Shown piece after piece: positions 24,938 through 35,006 of a stretch of 36,287 nucleotides of DNA. The translations under genes and the position numbers were made by a program. Where the stretch lies: positions 1 through 36,287 of the forward strand of contig JAITCI010000014.1 in assembly GCA_031283155.1 (NCBI GenBank), written 5' to 3'. The notes beneath the pieces were generated by a model. It did not search any database. It was not told where the DNA came from and saw nothing but the letters and a program-made list of their open reading frames with translations. The stretch's first letter is position 1; every line of letters begins with the position of its first letter. This DNA comes from Spirochaetota bacterium (GTDB lineage: Bacteria; Spirochaetota; JAGLSM01; JAKPMW01).

Positions 24938-25783
24938 TCAAAATAAATAGTGCGTCATTTGCTGCGCAAGACCGGCAAACCCCAATTCGGCAATCCGGGG
25001 CTCAAACTGTTCCCAATTATCCCCGTAGTGCATGAGGTATATCTTTTTCCGTATTTCGGGAGGCAGAGTTGCGAGTTCCTCAAGCCCCGCGTGGACGCCG
25101 CCGGTAAAAAACTGACAATCATGGAATATTGCCTCAAGCGGGAATTGCTCATTAAATGTGATGACAAGATCGGGATCAAACCGCGTATCGCTTGTGAATA
25201 AGATTTTCCCGTTAATGATAACGCCGCAGCTCCAGAATGAACTCTCCCAGCTCCCCGATGAATCAGGGATGTGCTTGGTGCGCATAAATTTGAGCTTGAT
25301 ATCGCCCAGCGCGGTCTCGCAAAAAAGCCTCGACGCGTTCGTTATATACCGCGGACGCCTGGGTTCAAAAAAGTCCACAAAGGCAAGCACTTCTCCGGCT
25401 GCTTCCTCGTTATATCCGCATCCGCCGCGGAGCGACATATCCCAGAGGAGATGCTGATAGGTTTCGGTAATGATCATGACGGGTTTTTTCTTTGTGAAGT
25501 ACCGCCCCAGAAGAGCCGCCTCCTCAAGCCCGCCGATGTGATCGGCATGGGAATGCGTGATAAAAAAATTATGGATGTCTGTAATATGTATTCCGGCTTT
25601 CGCGAGCGCCATCGGTGCCGAGGTGCCGCAATCGATCAGAATGTGATCGTTCCCCTGGATGATGAGCAGATTGGTTTGGTAATTCCGCTTTGTAAAGGCG
25701 CTCCCCACACCAATGAAAAAAAGATCGAGCCTTCCGTCATTGGTCAGCGAGAGCTTGTTGCCGCCAAGCGCCTGTATTTCCAT
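24938..25783 (-). CDS. MBL-fold metal-dependent hydrolase (RNase Z-like group)
   Basis: 281 residues from ATG 25781-25783 (MEIQALGGNKLSLTNDGRLD), with GGAGG 8 bp upstream. The metallo-beta-lactamase motif ITHSHADHIGGLEE is complete. It is flanked by LIDCGTSAPMALA, the later metal ligands FTSDTRFD and FHDCQFF, and a final YLMHYGDNW. All metal ligands seem present, so it should be an active binuclear zinc or iron hydrolase. The lineage resembles RNase Z/PhnP-like enzymes more than lactamases; the substrate is unknown. It lies between folE and the NUDIX gene, same strand. Confidence 0.85.
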   Translation of the reverse strand: MEIQALGGNKLSLTNDGRLDLFFIGVGSAFTKRNYQTNLLIIQGNDHILIDCGTSAPMALAKAGIHITDIHNFFITHSHADHIGGLEEAALLGRYFTKKKPVMIITETYQHLLWDMSLRGGCGYNEEAAGEVLAFVDFFEPRRPRYITNASRLFCETALGDIKLKFMRTKHIPDSSGSWESSFWSCGVIINGKILFTSDTRFDPDLVITFNEQFPLEAIFHDCQFFTGGVHAGLEELATLPPEIRKKIYLMHYGDNWEQFEPRIAELGFAGLAQQMTHYLF

Positions 25784-25838
25784 GAGGGCATCCTCCTCGT
25801 CTGACAGTATAGGATGAAAGAGAGACGGAATCAAAATT

Positions 25839-26445: not shown

Positions 26446-26853
26446 ATGCGCCGCACGGACTATCTGAGTACTTTAATTATTATGGTATTCAGGTATATAT
26501 GCGCAATTATCCTCCTGCTTTTCGCGGGCTGCGGTGCCAGAAATACCGGGCGTGTATTCAGCGATGGAAACGTGGCGCTCGGCTACCGCCACACCGGGAA
26601 TGAGCGTCCCGCAAGCGTATATCTCTCCGGTTCCTTCAACGATTGGCTGATAAGCGATCCCCGGTTTAAGTGCGAATGGGATCCGGCTGAAGAAAAGTAC
26701 AGCATCGCCTTCAGATTGGTGCCCGGAAGATACGAATATCGTTTTGTTGTGGATGGACGCTGGGTACACGACCCGGACGCCCGTGAAAGCGCGCCTGATC
26801 CTCTCGGAGGAAGACTCGGAGTTTTTTATGTCACTCAGCCAAATCCGCAATAA
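26446..26853 (+). CDS. Small lipoprotein with a glycogen-binding-like E-set domain
   Basis: 135 residues. A signal peptide ends in the lipobox LLLFAGC (Cys about residue 29). The rest is one E-set domain of the AMPK-beta/CBM48 type: ASVYLSGSFNDWLISD, a WDPAEEKYSIAFRLVPGRYE beta-strand pair, then YRFVVDGRWVHDPDA and a DPLGGRLGVFYV end. The aromatic and G-Y/D-G-W residues that bind alpha-glucans in this family are mostly present. It probably sits on the outer face of a membrane and binds a carbohydrate or protein. A later ATG (26482) is possible. It overlaps the phosphatase gene by 26 bp, so the two are co-translated. Confidence 0.8.
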   Translation: MRRTDYLSTLIIMVFRYICAIILLLFAGCGARNTGRVFSDGNVALGYRHTGNERPASVYLSGSFNDWLISDPRFKCEWDPAEEKYSIAFRLVPGRYEYRFVVDGRWVHDPDARESAPDPLGGRLGVFYVTQPNPQ

Positions 26854-29089
26854 GCTGCGGAAGCTTAACCGGTTCAAAAGTTTATATATGCCGTTTTTTA
26901 TAGTCATACTCATCTACATCCCCCTGCGTTTTATCTTGGCTGAGTTAGACGAAAAATCAAGAGCGCCCAGGCTCTTTCAATACGAACACAGGGAAGAGGA
27001 CGGAGCGCTGCCCGGAGAAGTGTATTTCAGTGATCGTTCCAACGGCTGGGCGCTTCAGGACGAGCACTATCGCATGATGTTTGATGGTACCAATACATGG
27101 AAAATCAAACTGCCGCTCAAACCCGGGATCCACAACTATCGCTATGTACTCCATTTTCCTGCCGAAAACACGCTTCGCTTTGCCACCGACTCCAATAAAC
27201 TCAGCTCCAGACTTTTTAACGACAAAATGCCCCGATCTGAAATTCGGGTACAAAGCATCCGGCCTCTTTGCGAATGGGTTGACCGTATTTTTCACATACT
27301 GATCATCGGTATTCCGCTTTTCTTCCCGCTCAGTTTCTGGCTCATACGCTTTATGCGTTTTCGTATGTCGCTCAGGTATAAACTGATCGTTTCTTTTCTG
27401 TTCCTGCTTATTGCTTCAAACGCGATTGCCATCATCCTGAACAAACCGCAGAACGAAAATGTGGCGCGGATTCTTCAAACCGATACGATTAATTTTATCC
27501 ACACCATGCTCATCAGCGAAGGAATTGAGTTTTCAGAACTTGAAACCAATCCGGTAATGCAAAACAGAATCAGCGAACGGCTGGATCGCTTTTTTCAAAA
27601 TACCCTCATCCGTGAAAACTATGAAACCTTTGCTAACGATAATCTGCAGATCACGCGCGTGTCCGTACTCGGCATGGATGGGCAAATTCTGGTCAATGTC
27701 TGGGGAAAAGAACTCGAAGAACTTCTCCGCATATCCTACCCCGGCGACAGCGATATCAAAGACTACTACGAGGCTCTTGCCGGCCGGGTCTTTCTTGCCT
27801 ATAAAAAACGACCGGAATTTAACCAAACGATCTTCGGTTTTTCCATATTCGATTATTTCACGGATGAGATACGGGGCGAGACAGACAAAAAAAGGATTCA
27901 GCAATACAGAAATATGACGTCCCATTTCCAGGAAAATGGGTATATCGCGCCCATACTCCATCACCAGAAGGTCTGCGGCTATTATTTTTTCGAGATCGAC
28001 GGCGAAAGTATATCCGGTCTCTTCAGAAACAATATATATTACAGCCTGGTTCTGCTTGCGGTATTTGCTATTCTCTGCTTTTTCCTGATATCGCGATCCA
28101 TGGGCATCATGCTTCATCCGGTACTCTCCCTCATCAATGGACTCGACCTGGTTCGCGAAGGGCAGCTTGATTACAAAATCGAAGTCGATACGCATGATGA
28201 GATTGAGGCTCTTGGCGACGCCTATAATTTTATGAGAAAGCGCATTCAGGAATCCGCCGATCAAATTGAATATTATACCAGCCACCTGGAACTCGAACTC
28301 GACAAGCGCTGGCGGGAACTCAGCCGGGCAAACGCCGCCTACAGGGAAGAACTGTATATCGCGGGAAGGCTCCAGCAGCAATTGCTTGACTTAAGCGCAT
28401 TTCTGCAGATAAAAAATCCCGAAATACGGGTTATTTATTCCGCGCTGACCGAGGTGGGCGGGGATTTTTACATTGTCTCAGAGCCGCGAAATTCCTGTGT
28501 GCGTATTTTTCTCGCCGACGTTACCGGTCACGGGGTTCCGGCGGCGCTTATCACGATGATTCTGAAGAGCGAATACGAAAAGGTTAAATCGCTGTACGAT
28601 CCGGTTCTGCTTCTGAACATCATCAACGATGCCTTTGCCGCCACCTATGGGACTATATGCGTTTTCTTTACGTGTATCGTAATAGACATCGACACGGCGG
28701 AGATGAAGCTGCGCTATGTTTCCGCCGGTCATCCCAGTCAATATCTTTTGCGAAACGGGGAATGTGTCCCGCTGCACAGCAAGGGCAGGATCATCGGCGT
28801 CGTGGCTAATCCGGGATTTTCGATTGAGGAGATAACGCTTAATGAGGGTGATCGCATCCTTCTCTTTACCGACGGCCTGCTTGAGCAAACAAACCCGCAG
28901 GGAGAGGAATACGGGGAGGCACGCCTTATTGATTTTCTGCGCAAGGCAAGCGGACAATTAAACTGTGATGAATTGAATGCGGCAGTCCTCGGGGATATGA
29001 AAGATTTTCAGCAGGATCAGGAACCCGTTGACGACATTACCCTGATTTCTGTCCGATGCCCAGTGAAAAGCCGCATGGGAAAGGTATAA
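26828..29089 (+). CDS. Membrane sensor phosphatase: E-set domain, HAMP, PP2C (RsbU/SpoIIE-type)
   Basis: 753 residues from ATG 26828 (GGAG 6 bp upstream). Order: TM1 (about 18-38); an extracytoplasmic E-set domain similar to the preceding lipoprotein (about 62-145: PGEVYFSDRSNGW, PLKPGIHNYRYVLHF); TM2-TM3 (about 154-204); a second outside domain (about 205-400); TM4 (about 403-425); HAMP (to about 475); a coiled coil; and a PP2C domain. Phosphatase metal motifs are present: EVGGDFY (D546), LADVTGHGVPAAL (D564), LLFTDGLLEQ and DDITLIS. Such phosphatases usually act on anti-anti-sigma (STAS) proteins; no partner is encoded here. Confidence 0.87.
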   Translation: MSLSQIRNKLRKLNRFKSLYMPFFIVILIYIPLRFILAELDEKSRAPRLFQYEHREEDGALPGEVYFSDRSNGWALQDEHYRMMFDGTNTWKIKLPLKPGIHNYRYVLHFPAENTLRFATDSNKLSSRLFNDKMPRSEIRVQSIRPLCEWVDRIFHILIIGIPLFFPLSFWLIRFMRFRMSLRYKLIVSFLFLLIASNAIAIILNKPQNENVARILQTDTINFIHTMLISEGIEFSELETNPVMQNRISERLDRFFQNTLIRENYETFANDNLQITRVSVLGMDGQILVNVWGKELEELLRISYPGDSDIKDYYEALAGRVFLAYKKRPEFNQTIFGFSIFDYFTDEIRGETDKKRIQQYRNMTSHFQENGYIAPILHHQKVCGYYFFEIDGESISGLFRNNIYYSLVLLAVFAILCFFLISRSMGIMLHPVLSLINGLDLVREGQLDYKIEVDTHDEIEALGDAYNFMRKRIQESADQIEYYTSHLELELDKRWRELSRANAAYREELYIAGRLQQQLLDLSAFLQIKNPEIRVIYSALTEVGGDFYIVSEPRNSCVRIFLADVTGHGVPAALITMILKSEYEKVKSLYDPVLLLNIINDAFAATYGTICVFFTCIVIDIDTAEMKLRYVSAGHPSQYLLRNGECVPLHSKGRIIGVVANPGFSIEEITLNEGDRILLFTDGLLEQTNPQGEEYGEARLIDFLRKASGQLNCDELNAAVLGDMKDFQQDQEPVDDITLISVRCPVKSRMGKV

Positions 29090-29128: not shown

Positions 29129-30139
29129 ATGGCAAAAACAGAAATCAAACCACAGCATGAAAAACCGGGCAATCAAAAACTGATTGCCCTTGCCATCCTT
29201 GTGCTCCTTCTGCTCTCGGCTGTTCAATTTGTGTTTTTGCTTGTCATCCGTGCCGAAAAGCTCCCTCCACTGGATCCGGGAACAGAAATAGCGCTTGAGG
29301 TTGTGCAGGTGATCGACCTTAAATATTCTTTCTTCAGCGAGACAGAGTTTCAGGAGATACTGGACTCCATCAAGCGCGAGACCAAAGAAGTGCTTGGCTA
29401 TGAGATTGTTTTTACCCAGGTTCGGAAGGTGATGAGCGACGCCTACGCAGACCTGCATAACGTCTTTATTGACCCGAAAGCCGCAGACGCCTGGTTCAGC
29501 TCGCAGCTGGCGCAGGAGAAAGGCTGGCAGACCAACTTTGCGTGGCTGAATGCGGTCCTGCAGCATCCGGTTTCGCGCGGGATACTGGAATCCTTTTACG
29601 GTATGGAGGAGAATGCCGCCCTGAGTACCGCCATTAAGCAGGACTTCACCAAAAAAATCACCGGCAATCTTGCCATCCGCGATCTCCGCGGCAGCCGCGT
29701 GTTTGACGACAAACGGCAGGAAGGTCTCTCGTCGGTCGCGTATTGGCACTATCTGTTGGGAGAGCAGTCCGACGGAGATCTGGTGATTTCAAATATTCCG
29801 GTATTTTTCCCCTCGGCGCAAACCCCGGCGGACGCAGTCACGCGCGGAGGACTCGCGCATTCGATGATCGTTTCCTCTGCGCGCCCGCTCGGCGGAGTGA
29901 TCGGGCTTTCTTCCTGGCCGCTTCTTGCCCGGGACGATTATTCCCGCGAAACCGCGCAAAACATATTTTCGCGCATCGCGCTGCAATCGATTGCGCGATT
30001 GCTGCTCAGGCAGGATTACTCCCGCGAACCCGAGGGGAATTTACTCTCTCCGATACTTGGCGAAAATTACCTTTTGTGGTATACTCAGTTTTCAGGGCGG
30101 CTTGCGGAAGATACACCGCAGCCCGTCAAAAACTTTTGA
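29129..30139 (+). CDS. Membrane-anchored protein of unknown function
   Basis: 336 residues with a basic N-terminus, then one membrane helix (LIALAILVLLLLSAVQFVFL, about residues 18-37). The remainder is soluble and predicted to be outside, with no recognised motif (..DLKYSFFSETEFQEILDSIK.., ..LARDDYSRETAQNIFSRIAL..). It lies 39 bp after the phosphatase and 9 bp before cdd, so it is within a four-gene transcription unit. The ribosome site is AGAGGGG. Confidence 0.7.
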   Translation: MAKTEIKPQHEKPGNQKLIALAILVLLLLSAVQFVFLLVIRAEKLPPLDPGTEIALEVVQVIDLKYSFFSETEFQEILDSIKRETKEVLGYEIVFTQVRKVMSDAYADLHNVFIDPKAADAWFSSQLAQEKGWQTNFAWLNAVLQHPVSRGILESFYGMEENAALSTAIKQDFTKKITGNLAIRDLRGSRVFDDKRQEGLSSVAYWHYLLGEQSDGDLVISNIPVFFPSAQTPADAVTRGGLAHSMIVSSARPLGGVIGLSSWPLLARDDYSRETAQNIFSRIALQSIARLLLRQDYSREPEGNLLSPILGENYLLWYTQFSGRLAEDTPQPVKNF

Positions 30140-30553: not shown

Positions 30554-30675
30554 GGCTAGGACAGGATGTTCTGCACCGATACTGTTCGTCGCGCAAGCGA
30601 CGCCTATAATTTTCCTTGCAGTCACGCCCGAAGGGCGTTGCGCGTACAAGGATGTACGCTCTTGCGAGGGCTAGG
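30554..30675 (-). repeat. Dispersed hairpin element, second copy
   Basis: Inverted relative to the 13275-13372 copy. It contains the ACGCCC-GAAGGGCGT-type hairpin, the CGTCGC..GCGACG hairpin, the GTACAAGGATGTAC hairpin and the GAGGGCTAGG boundary. It fills the 129-bp convergent gap between cdd and the HD-GYP response regulator. The regulator's TAG stop lies in its final CTAG. The short reading frame across it is repeat-encoded and similar in peptide sequence to the one at 13 kb, not a gene. Confidence 0.75.
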
Positions 30676-31765
30676 CAACATCTTTCTTGAAACGGAAGCA
30701 ATCCGCCGACTCGAGGAATATATCCACCAGCGTCGGGTCAAACTGGGTTCCGCGGCGCTCGCGGATAATCTGCACCGCTTTCTGGTGCGGGTAGGCGGGC
30801 TTATATGGGCGCACAGAAACAAGCGCGTCATAAACGTCGGCGATTGCCATGATGCGCCCGAGAAGAGGTATCTCTTCGCCCTTCAAGCCATACGGATAGC
30901 CCGAACCGTCCCAGTACTCATGGTGGAATGAGACAAAGATTTTCGCATATTCAAGAAAATCGCTCACGTTAGTCATGGACTGCGCTTTTTCAATCATCTG
31001 CTTTCCCAGAATGGTATGCTTTTTCATTTCGTCAAATTCGTCAGTCGTGAGTTTCCCGGGTTTCTTGAGTATCGCGTCGCTGACGCCTACCTTTCCGAGA
31101 TCATGGAGCTGGCATGACTGCAGCACAAGTTCCTTGTTCCAGTCCCTGGTCTCATTTGGCCAAAGACCCCTTTTTATAATCTCGTCGAGCAAAACGCCTA
31201 CTCCAAGCTGCGTACGCTCTATATGCTGACCTGTTGTATCATCACGCGCTTCAACCACTTCCGCCAGTGAGGTTAAAAAAATATTCTGAAGCGTCATAAT
31301 GTCTTTTGTTTTTTCTTCAACCATACTCTGGAGATTTTCATTGAAATTCCGCAATTCGCTTGCCTGCGCCTCCAATGAAAGCCGCTGTGCCTGAATCAGG
31401 AGGTGTATCTCAATGCGTTTCAAAAGCAGAACAGGCTGAAAGGGCTTTGTTATATAATCCACCGCGCCAAGCGAAAGCCCCATGAGTTCGTCTTCCGATT
31501 CGGTCTTTGCCGTCAGAAACATAACCGGGATATTTTGCGTACTCTGTTTTGATTTCAGTATGCGAATCGTTTCGTAGCCATCCATTTCCGGCATATCCAC
31601 ATCCAGAAGAATCATATCCGGAGTCATAACTTCCAGGAGCTTAAAGAGCTTTTCCGCCGAGGGAGCAGTGGCGGTATTGTATTTTTCAGAGATAACATTC
31701 TTGCCAATACGAAGGTTTGTTGGATTATCGTCCACAAGCATGATCAAGGGTTTTTCGTCTCTCAT
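30671..31765 (-). CDS. Response regulator with HD-GYP output (probable c-di-GMP phosphodiesterase)
   Basis: 364 residues from ATG 31763-31765 (MRDEKPLIMLVDDNPTNLRI), with AAAGGG upstream; a coupled start at 31780, overlapping the kinase stop (ATGA), is also possible. Receiver: D12-D13, phospho-acceptor D55 in MILLDVDMPEMDG, and K107 (ITKPFQP). A coiled linker (about 125-165) leads to the HD-GYP domain: GQHIERTQLGVGVL, QLHDLGKVGVSD (H221-D222), KKHTILGKQM, HHEYWDGSGYPYGLKGEEIP, MAIADVYDALVSVRPYK. All catalytic residues are present. It is encoded directly after a hybrid kinase with an HPt, its likely phospho-donor. Confidence 0.93.
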   Translation of the reverse strand: MRDEKPLIMLVDDNPTNLRIGKNVISEKYNTATAPSAEKLFKLLEVMTPDMILLDVDMPEMDGYETIRILKSKQSTQNIPVMFLTAKTESEDELMGLSLGAVDYITKPFQPVLLLKRIEIHLLIQAQRLSLEAQASELRNFNENLQSMVEEKTKDIMTLQNIFLTSLAEVVEARDDTTGQHIERTQLGVGVLLDEIIKRGLWPNETRDWNKELVLQSCQLHDLGKVGVSDAILKKPGKLTTDEFDEMKKHTILGKQMIEKAQSMTNVSDFLEYAKIFVSFHHEYWDGSGYPYGLKGEEIPLLGRIMAIADVYDALVSVRPYKPAYPHQKAVQIIRERRGTQFDPTLVDIFLESADCFRFKKDVA

Positions 31766-31776
31766 AAGCATCCCTT

Positions 31777-34700
31777 TCATTTGACAGAATGAAATAACGC
31801 TTCAATCGTATTCACTGCTTCGTCATAATCCGCCATCAGAATCTGGTCGGAAACGGTTTGCACAGCCCGTTCTGTTCCGGCTTCCAGCGTTCTTCTGGTA
31901 AGCGCATCCATTATACCATCAATATTAGCAATGTTTCGCGTTTTAAGCGACTCCAGTAATTTTCTGAAAATCGGGAATAATGTCTCAGAATTAAAAGGTT
32001 CGGATTCTTTATTCTCGGGATGCACAAAACCAAGTTTTTCGAGTAAAAACATCCAGTCCAGAATTTCATAAACCAGAGCGTCCAGACGCTCAATAAAACC
32101 CGGTATATCTTCCCGGATGTACGCCAGATTGCCTTCTCCCCCCTTTGCCTCGAGAATTGCGGCCTCTTTTGAAAAATCCGCCGCCCCCAGACTTGAAGAC
32201 GCGCTCTTGAGGGAATGAAACTGCGTGACAAAATCAGGCAGGGATTCGGGATCAAGGGGATTCGCGCGAAAAAAATCAATCCTTGCCGCCGCGTCTTTGC
32301 AAAACACGTCAAGAACCTTCTTATAACCCGTAAAGGTTCCGCCTGTCATTATAATACCCCGCTCCACATCCACCCCTTTAAGCGAAGGATACACAGGGGC
32401 TTTTACTTCCACGCGCGGAGAATCCGTCTGCAGCGTTCTTTTTATCCGCTTTTCCTCCGGAATCCATTGTATAAGAACTTCATCCAGCCTGGCAATATCC
32501 ATTGGCTTGGCGAGAAAATCATTAAAGCGGGAGGCAATATACATTTCACGCGTTCCGGAAACCGCATTTGCCGTTAGTGCGATAACAGGCAGCGAAACAT
32601 GGCGCCCGCCGAGATCGCGTATCGCATGTACTGCCTCTATGCCGTCCATGCCGGGCATCATATGATCCATAAATACGACGTCGTAATCATGGTTTTTTAC
32701 AAGCTCGATGGAATCCAGACCGGACAGGCAGGTATCCACCCTGGCCTCGTAGGGCGTCAAAAGACCTTCGGTTACTTTAAGATTGGTAAGCATATCGTCA
32801 ACCACAAGAATCCGCGCCTCAGGGAAAACATACCGGACAAAATTATCTGTTCTCGTGCTTCCGAGCAATTCGGTATAGGTTGCCTGTCCATTCAATATAT
32901 TCGCCAGGGAAAGAGTGTACACCGGCAAGGACAGAAAAGAAACGCCGGGTATGGGGTTTTCGGAACCCAGCGCGACAGTAAGTATCAGACCCGGCTTTTC
33001 ATCACCGGAAGACACCGAGACCGTCTCTTTCAGGATTTCGCGGATCCGTTTGTAGATTTTATAAATACCGTAATCGGTTAAAATAAAGTTCCATTTTCCG
33101 GCAGTAATGGCTTCGTAAAAATCTTCGACGGACGCCACCATTTTACAGGGTACTTTGAGGTTATCCAGCGACCAGCAGAGCGACTGAGCATACGCCTTGC
33201 GGTGCTCAAAAACCAGCACATTCTTTTTTTCGGGGGATTCCACACAGGCAAACGGCAGATCGGAATCAATCTCCTGGATAATGCTCGCTTCAAAGATACT
33301 GCCCTTGCCATACTCGCTTTTCAGCCTGATACCGCCGCCCATAGCTATGCAGAGAGATCGGGTGATCGCGAGTCCAAGACCTGTCCCCTCGATGCCGGAA
33401 TTTTTTTTCATGTCCACCTGGATAAAATCCCCGAAGAGCTTTTCCTGATCCTCGGGCGTTATACCCCTTCCGGTATCGGCAACCTCTATCCGCAGAAGAA
33501 CCTGCCTGGAACCATGTCTTTCCGCCGTAAGCGTGAGAGTGATTTGCCCGCGGTCGGTATACTTGACGGCATTCGAGAGTATGTTCAGAAGTATTTGCCT
33601 CAATCGTATCTCGTCGCCAATGAGGCTTGATGGAATATTGCTGTCGATATTTGTTATAAAACGAATGGGTTTCTCCGAAAGCCGCATACGGATAATATTG
33701 ATTGTATCCTGTATGAGCGAAGCCAGGGCATATTTTGCGGGCGTTATCTGGATCTGACCGGCCTCAATCTTGGAAAAATCCAGGATATCGTTAATAATGG
33801 AAATAAGATTTGCCGACGCCTGCTTGATATCCTGCGCGTATTCATGCGGCTTGGCGGGAAGGGTCTCCCTGAGAAGGAGTTCCGCCATACCGGTGATCGC
33901 GTTCATGGGAGTGCGGATCTCATGGCTCATTTTGGCAAGAAAATTTGATTTGTATTTATTTTCTTCCTCGGAACGAAGCCGCGCCATGGAGAGCCGCAGC
34001 AGAACATAACAGAGCGAAGCGGCCAGGCTCCCGCCCAAAAGCATCAGAATGAGCGCGGAGGTATACCGGTCGCCGTAAAATTTTGTTTTGGGGATAATGC
34101 TTCCGACATACCATCCGTTAAAAATTTTCTTGAAAAAAACAAGGGCGGTGGTTCCGTCCCTGTCTTCGATCTCGCGGTCAAACACTATTTCGCCGCTTCT
34201 GAGATCGTGCGCCAATTTCGTAAAATCCCCGCCCAGGTTCTGAAACTGATTGCCCAGAACATCGCTGTCAGGGTGCGCCATGATGGCCATATCCTGGCTG
34301 AGTAAAATTCCATACCCGTCAAAAAGACGCGTAAGCCCGGCCACTGCCTGCCCAATCATTTTGCTGTCGACGTCAACCGCGAGGATACCGATTATATCCT
34401 CTTTATAAATGACGTTTTGTACGATGGATATAATCGTATTTTCGGTACGCGCGTCATGATAGGGTGCCGTATACGCAATGGACGTACCGCTGCGCACCGC
34501 AGTTTGGTACCAGGGCTGTCTTTGGGGAACAAAATCATCACCGGGATACAAATCAATACTGTCGTAAAAATGGCCGTTGATATATCCATAAATACCGTGA
34601 ATATCGATCATCCCCTGCTCGCGCTGTGTCAGCCAGGCGGTAGTTGTACGCAGATAGTTCAGGATCTCGTACCGGGATGCGCCGTGGTCCAGCATACCTG

Positions 34701-34932
34701 TCAGGACATAATAGGAGTTTAAGAGCGTGATTTCCCCTTTTGAAAACCACACCTTGACGTTCGTCTCAGCGGTATCGATGACCTCTTCCACCCTGCCGAG
34801 AAGACGGTTTTCCAGTATATCCCCGATGAATATGTACGCGGCAAGAACCATAATGGTGAAAGACGCAAAAACAATGACGATCTCACGGATGTTGTGCTTA
34901 AGCGCTTTTGTAATATTGCGCTTGTCTTCCAT
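31777..34932 (-). CDS. Hybrid histidine kinase: Cache, HisKA-HATPase, degenerate receiver, receiver, HPt
   Basis: 1051 residues from ATG 34930-34932 (MEDKRNITKALKHN); an ATG four codons earlier is possible. TM1 about 16-36; extracytoplasmic Cache sensor about 40-285 (FVPQRQPWYQTAV, VIYKEDIIGILAVDVDSKMI); TM2 about 294-314. HisKA: AKMSHEIRTPMNAITG, H337. ATPase: NILSNAV, VADTGRGI, GTGLGLAI. A receiver-like domain lacking the acidic pair and lysine lies at about 569-685. The true receiver has VVDD, D756 (VVFMDHMMPGMDG) and K809. The HPt is FVTQFHSLKSASSSLG, H906. This is a full four-step phosphorelay. A binding lipoprotein is upstream and the HD-GYP regulator downstream. Confidence 0.93.
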   Translation of the reverse strand: MEDKRNITKALKHNIREIVIVFASFTIMVLAAYIFIGDILENRLLGRVEEVIDTAETNVKVWFSKGEITLLNSYYVLTGMLDHGASRYEILNYLRTTTAWLTQREQGMIDIHGIYGYINGHFYDSIDLYPGDDFVPQRQPWYQTAVRSGTSIAYTAPYHDARTENTIISIVQNVIYKEDIIGILAVDVDSKMIGQAVAGLTRLFDGYGILLSQDMAIMAHPDSDVLGNQFQNLGGDFTKLAHDLRSGEIVFDREIEDRDGTTALVFFKKIFNGWYVGSIIPKTKFYGDRYTSALILMLLGGSLAASLCYVLLRLSMARLRSEEENKYKSNFLAKMSHEIRTPMNAITGMAELLLRETLPAKPHEYAQDIKQASANLISIINDILDFSKIEAGQIQITPAKYALASLIQDTINIIRMRLSEKPIRFITNIDSNIPSSLIGDEIRLRQILLNILSNAVKYTDRGQITLTLTAERHGSRQVLLRIEVADTGRGITPEDQEKLFGDFIQVDMKKNSGIEGTGLGLAITRSLCIAMGGGIRLKSEYGKGSIFEASIIQEIDSDLPFACVESPEKKNVLVFEHRKAYAQSLCWSLDNLKVPCKMVASVEDFYEAITAGKWNFILTDYGIYKIYKRIREILKETVSVSSGDEKPGLILTVALGSENPIPGVSFLSLPVYTLSLANILNGQATYTELLGSTRTDNFVRYVFPEARILVVDDMLTNLKVTEGLLTPYEARVDTCLSGLDSIELVKNHDYDVVFMDHMMPGMDGIEAVHAIRDLGGRHVSLPVIALTANAVSGTREMYIASRFNDFLAKPMDIARLDEVLIQWIPEEKRIKRTLQTDSPRVEVKAPVYPSLKGVDVERGIIMTGGTFTGYKKVLDVFCKDAAARIDFFRANPLDPESLPDFVTQFHSLKSASSSLGAADFSKEAAILEAKGGEGNLAYIREDIPGFIERLDALVYEILDWMFLLEKLGFVHPENKESEPFNSETLFPIFRKLLESLKTRNIANIDGIMDALTRRTLEAGTERAVQTVSDQILMADYDEAVNTIEALFHSVK

Positions 34933-35006
34933 GACCTGCCCCATAGCGTCTTTTGCTGTAATTATACCGGATACCGCTGAATTCCGTCAAAATTTAATTG
35001 ACTGCC

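Follow-up and report, generated by a model that had tools for sequence, protein, structure and literature searches.

The analysed window, 36,287 nucleotides of contig JAITCI010000014.1 from a Spirochaetota bacterium, contains a lipoprotein gene (26446-26853) and a receptor phosphatase gene (26828-29089), both on the (+) strand. Their open reading frames and coordinates were verified, and with them the 26-bp overlap (26828-26853, (+) strand) reported in the preliminary description. A gene for a membrane protein of 336 aa, which has no Pfam family, starts 39 bp after the phosphatase gene (29129-30139, (+) strand) and is possibly co-transcribed with it. No glucan gene adjoins the pair within the window, and a search for a viral or phage origin gave no match. 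Further upstream, the window encodes a metallo-beta-lactamase-fold protein matching the Apyc1 family (24938-25834; PF23023, 5.3e-36), and further downstream a hybrid histidine kinase with a receiver-HD-GYP partner (30671-34944). A similar kinase elsewhere in the genome (L002) is partnered by a receiver-SpoIIE protein; the SpoIIE domain of this partner and that of the window phosphatase share 53% identity.

The lipoprotein gene encodes 135 aa from the ATG at 26446, although the ATG at 26482 is the likelier start. The signal peptide extends through the lipobox cysteine C29 (26446-26532, (+) strand; lipobox LLFAGC, hydrophobic segment 10-28). Residues 54-130 (26605-26835, (+) strand) form one AMPK1_CBM (PF16561) domain, which was detected with 45.1 bits against a gathering cut-off of 26.8 (1.2e-11). 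By sequence, the nearest solved structures were AMPK beta glycogen-binding domains (6.8e-8). An AlphaFold model of the lipoprotein (pLDDT 77) matched AMPK beta1 in a Foldseek search (1z0m/1z0n, 1.1e-6, TM 0.78 on the target). The Pfam match and the predicted fold together bear out the earlier assignment of the lipoprotein as a single AMPK/CBM48-type E-set domain.

The phosphatase gene is apparently intact and encodes 753 aa (26828-29089, (+) strand). The predicted protein starts with a transmembrane segment (TM1, residues 19-37, 26882-26938), followed by a degenerate E-set domain at about residues 48-143 (26969-27256), which was delimited by sequence and profile comparison. Two further segments (TM2, residues 154-172, 27287-27343; TM3, residues 186-204, 27383-27439) precede a second extracytoplasmic domain without Pfam family (about residues 205-402, 27440-28033). 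TM4 (residues 403-421, 28034-28090) leads to a HAMP domain (residues 426-475, 28103-28252; PF00672, 4.6e-7) and a SpoIIE/PP2C phosphatase domain (residues 557-744, 28496-29059; PF07228, 8.3e-43); all of these features lie on the (+) strand. The acidic metal-site motifs of SpoIIE proteins are present in the sequence (GGD546 just before the domain, D564VTGHG, TD682G and DD736), and together with the PF07228 match they place the protein among the SpoIIE-type PP2C phosphatases. The order of second outside domain, HAMP and PP2C is thus as originally described.

The preliminary description had also proposed that the first outside domain of the phosphatase is a similar, more degenerate E-set. A PF16561-type search of both proteins, suggested there as a check, gave a divided result: the lipoprotein matched, whereas the Pfam search of the phosphatase (P0002) returned neither PF16561 nor any other family over residues 62-145. 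Related receptors (the GAF-SpoIIE and LuxR forms described below) gave PF16561 matches below the cut-off. BLASTP aligned the E-set cores of lipoprotein and phosphatase with 7e-6 in the window and 2e-8 in the pair of a sister species, and hhalign matched the receptor and lipoprotein profiles over 77 columns with 98.8% probability (E 4.4e-17). An HMM built from the lipoproteins alone scored the two phosphatase domains at 31.7 and 37.7 bits, with 2000 shuffles at 5.1 bits or less. In a search of the PDB, the receptor profile matched E-set domains of alpha-amylase (7e-5), pullulanase and AMPK beta. These comparisons make shared ancestry with E-set domains clear. Because AlphaFold prediction of the phosphatase sensor from two sequences failed (pLDDT 35), the fold itself is assigned from sequence.

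A weak FastTree phylogeny of the short E-set domains placed the phosphatase E-set beside the adjacent lipoprotein (support 0.79) and not with the other receptors. The domain may therefore have arisen by gene conversion or by independent recruitment from the lipoprotein, and the same placement makes it insecure to carry glucan sensing over from the related receptors.

In AMPK beta1, carbohydrate is contacted by W100, K126, W133, L146 and T148, and mutants at these residues bind less glycogen (PMC2642990). We compared these positions in an alignment of 26 E-set domains, with rat AMPK beta1 as the reference. W/K/W occupies the W100, K126 and W133 positions in each of the eight receptors from other genera that were compared, and all eight keep the asparagine at the N150 position. 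The window phosphatase has W/R/F (W74, R105, F118) and lacks the N150 asparagine, as does its counterpart in the sister species; its remaining contact positions are not kept, and the domain does not carry the AMPK set of sugar contacts. The lipoprotein has W/R/W at the three positions in the window and W/K/W in the sister species. Its W67, R99, W106 and L120 are identical to the AMPK beta1 contacts or conservative replacements, T148 is replaced by G, and the T148 and N150 positions are lost. The receptor of the window's genus thus looks worn at its sugar face, while its lipoprotein partner does not. The difference between W/R/F in the receptor and W/R/W or W/K/W in the lipoprotein suggests a division of labour between the two E-set domains.

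The preliminary description had named conservation of the pair outside this genome as a further check. The pair was found in one more genome, a second Spirochaetota MAG of the same genus (G001, JAKPMW010000321.1). The overlap there is again 26 bp, and each of the two proteins is about 50% identical to its window counterpart (52% for the lipoprotein ortholog, P0003). The flanking gene content differs between the two genomes. Downstream of the pair, the sister genome has a gene that resembles by eye the one for the 336-aa membrane protein, and in the sister genome only, glgC lies about 4 kb downstream. In a phylum search with the sensor profile, the receptor was absent from the sole other genome sampled of the same order. 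Since the pair occurs in two congeneric genomes and the third genome of the order lacks the receptor, it is genuine and retained, yet narrow, being confined in our sample to the window's genus.

In order to find relatives of the receptor, the sensor profile was used in a phylum-wide search and in two orders. The layout TM, E-set, TM, TM, outside domain, TM recurs with other outputs and therefore behaves as a portable sensor module. A HAMP-GAF-SpoIIE form was found in four genomes of one genus, and a HAMP-HisKA-HATPase-receiver-SpoIIE form in one genome of that same genus. A third form, which carries a LuxR/GerE DNA-binding domain, was found in genomes of two other families (G380, G401, G406 and G073), and in G404, where it is cut by the contig end. 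In all three genomes with sequence downstream of the LuxR-form gene (G380, G401 and G406), a secreted GH13 alpha-amylase follows directly on the same strand (L196:5791-10024, L193:7601-11901 and L195:1124-5398, all within one Spirochaetota family). These amylases have 927-934 aa, match PF00128 with about 1e-56 and contain Glucodextran_C; in G380, a pullulanase-type GH13 gene also lies nearby. The E-set-LuxR protein is thus a candidate one-component starch-sensing regulator, and its adjacency to amylases is the best evidence on what the E-set sensor reads. Since related sensors are wired to starch-degrading enzymes, the window sensor probably reports starch-like sugars.

In the genus with the GAF-SpoIIE form, the genes after the E-set phosphatase encode a receiver, a secreted TPR/multi-E-set protein and another membrane protein, so that the phosphatase and the multi-E-set protein are one gene apart. 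The other membrane protein resembles, at its N terminus, a phosphatase of genome G027 (see below). One genome of this genus has 32 GH13 matches. The genus also has genes for single-E-set proteins, either secreted or lipoproteins, in tandem runs of 3-5 (L134:711-3045, L150:3815-5699 and L123).

E-set proteins are common in the phylum. PF16561 proteins were found in 171 of 198 Spirochaetota genomes, with seven matches in the genome of the window, and many of them are secreted, with two domains and about 250 aa. Such two-E-set proteins (for example L011:1489-2175, G000:C63) occur in most Spirochaetota families. Of 80 sampled E-set neighbourhoods, three contained a SpoIIE gene at a distance of up to about 4 kb, which indicates that E-set proteins mostly do other things. 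A general rule of E-set genes beside SpoIIE genes was therefore rejected. The arrangement was co-directional in one neighbourhood, that of G027 (L158:2887-7074), where a SiaC-family STAS gene, a gene for a secreted TPR/four-E-set protein and a HAMP-SpoIIE phosphatase gene stand in a row, the last two overlapping by 4 bp. Considering G027 and the GAF-SpoIIE genus together with the window, E-set and SpoIIE proteins are coupled in at least three different ways, but not as a general pattern.

On the output side, the genome of the window has five STAS and seven HATPase_c_2 (RsbW-type) matches, none of which adjoins the pair; this complement is enough for partner switching. Its small STAS proteins include C15:14685, C41:3185 and C70:14663. 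SiaC was considered as the phosphatase substrate and rejected for this genome, in which PF09345 has no match. The genome also encodes GH13 enzymes, one of which has an N-terminal membrane segment and, by eye, an E-set-like stretch.

Our preferred reading, held tentatively and at somewhat below even confidence, is that the pair works as a receptor phosphatase for alpha-glucans, with the sugar bound by the lipoprotein and the lipoprotein in turn read by the receptor's worn E-set. The ligand would be an alpha-glucan, such as starch, maltodextrin or a glycogen fragment. The lipoprotein probably captures it and then docks on the receptor, because it keeps the sugar-contact surface that the receptor E-set has partly lost. 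From there, TM4 and HAMP would relay the signal to the SpoIIE domain for dephosphorylation of a STAS anti-sigma-factor antagonist, and the resulting partner switch would alter transcription or enzyme activity. We infer glucan binding and the contact between lipoprotein and receptor, and likewise the substrate and the direction in which the cell responds. The preliminary description had offered as one option that both proteins read the same glucan. The position of the LuxR-form receptors upstream of secreted GH13 amylases favours a glucan as the signal; direct reading by the phosphatase is weakened, since the AMPK W133 and K126 positions are F and R in both species. The wider generalization, a receptor family that uses the AMPK/CBM48-type E-set as an alpha-glucan sensor with swapped outputs, and that in the window's genus has handed binding to a lipoprotein read by the worn E-set, is a possibility that we consider rather unlikely as a whole.

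The E-sets might instead be Ig-like modules that bind proteins or the envelope, with the lipoprotein reporting envelope state to the phosphatase, in analogy to the periplasmic partner protein of a sensor kinase; we give this explanation a limited chance. Secreted E-set proteins, being near-universal in the phylum, are more widespread than one would expect from alpha-glucan feeding. The two domains of the window gave weak matches to the type IX secretion plug protein as well, and part of the sugar contacts has gone from the phosphatase, as have the T148 and N150 positions from the lipoprotein. However, the invariant W/K/W of the eight homologous receptors and the GH13 amylases adjoining the LuxR form are hard to explain without a sugar, and the lipoprotein retains W67, R99 and W106, as does its ortholog with K in place of R.

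If a sugar is indeed read, the two proteins could bind it independently, the lipoprotein gathering it and the phosphatase acting as a direct receptor, with the operon reflecting a shared pathway only. The overlapping genes fit such an arrangement, and W74, R105 and F118 of the phosphatase are still aromatic or basic, conservative changes that need not abolish binding. Yet these changes are fixed in both species and the lipoprotein is nearer to the AMPK pattern, so that we regard independent binding as improbable. Chance neighbourhood without a functional link is less probable still: the abundance of E-set genes in the genome and the rarity of SpoIIE neighbours elsewhere would agree with it, but an identical 26-bp overlap has persisted in two species despite about 50% protein divergence and differing flanking genes, and a distant genus again has an E-set phosphatase close to a secreted multi-E-set protein.

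Spirochaetes have many SpoIIE-type receptor phosphatases, and the signal is known for few of them. On the preferred reading, with sugar capture by the lipoprotein, the receptor family gains alpha-glucans as a concrete, testable ligand class and a candidate co-receptor, and for the LuxR form the adjacent amylase is an immediate candidate target gene. In the open-licence literature we found no described system with an E-set/SpoIIE pair or a CBM48 membrane sensor, in agreement with the initial impression that such a pair had not been described. What is new is the portability of the sensor among SpoIIE, histidine kinase-receiver-SpoIIE and LuxR outputs, and the linkage of the LuxR form to amylases.

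Several known systems share parts of this design. In spirochaetes, the 7TMR-DISM receptors fused to SpoIIE likewise combine an outside domain of sugar-binding-like type with a SpoIIE or kinase output; this domain is a jelly roll, and the receptors have seven TM segments. The window receptor, with an E-set, four TM segments and no DISMED Pfam match, does not belong to them. Transmembrane transcription regulators and Bacteroides hybrid two-component glycan sensors are not known to use an AMPK/CBM48-type E-set as input domain. Like the LuxR-fused relatives, each is one membrane protein that senses external signals and governs transcription, that of glycan use included; the paper on the transmembrane regulators does not mention LuxR in its text (PMC10269533). 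SiaA of Pseudomonas aeruginosa, the HAMP-PP2C protein of the SiaABCD partner switch (PMC7647112), has the layout of outside domain, HAMP and PP2C in common with the window phosphatase, and a carbon-linked response would be a further likeness. SiaA was the best NCBIfam match of the phosphatase, with 93 bits against an equivalog cut-off of 700, and unlike SiaA the window protein has a four-TM sensor with an E-set. In the starch phosphatase SEX4 (4pyh and 3nme, Foldseek matches of the lipoprotein), CBM48 is linked to a phosphatase as it is here, but SEX4 is a plant enzyme of dual specificity whose target is glucan phosphate, whereas the window enzyme is a membrane PP2C that presumably acts on a protein. 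The AMPK beta glycogen-binding domain (CBM48/PF16561) is a glucan binder in control of a phosphorylation switch (PMC2642990); the lipoprotein resembles it in predicted fold and in its main sugar-contact residues. In AMPK the domain belongs to a cytosolic kinase, whereas here it is extracytoplasmic and present on both a lipoprotein and a receptor phosphatase; if our reading is true, the glycogen-sensing domain of AMPK serves bacteria as an outside nutrient sensor.
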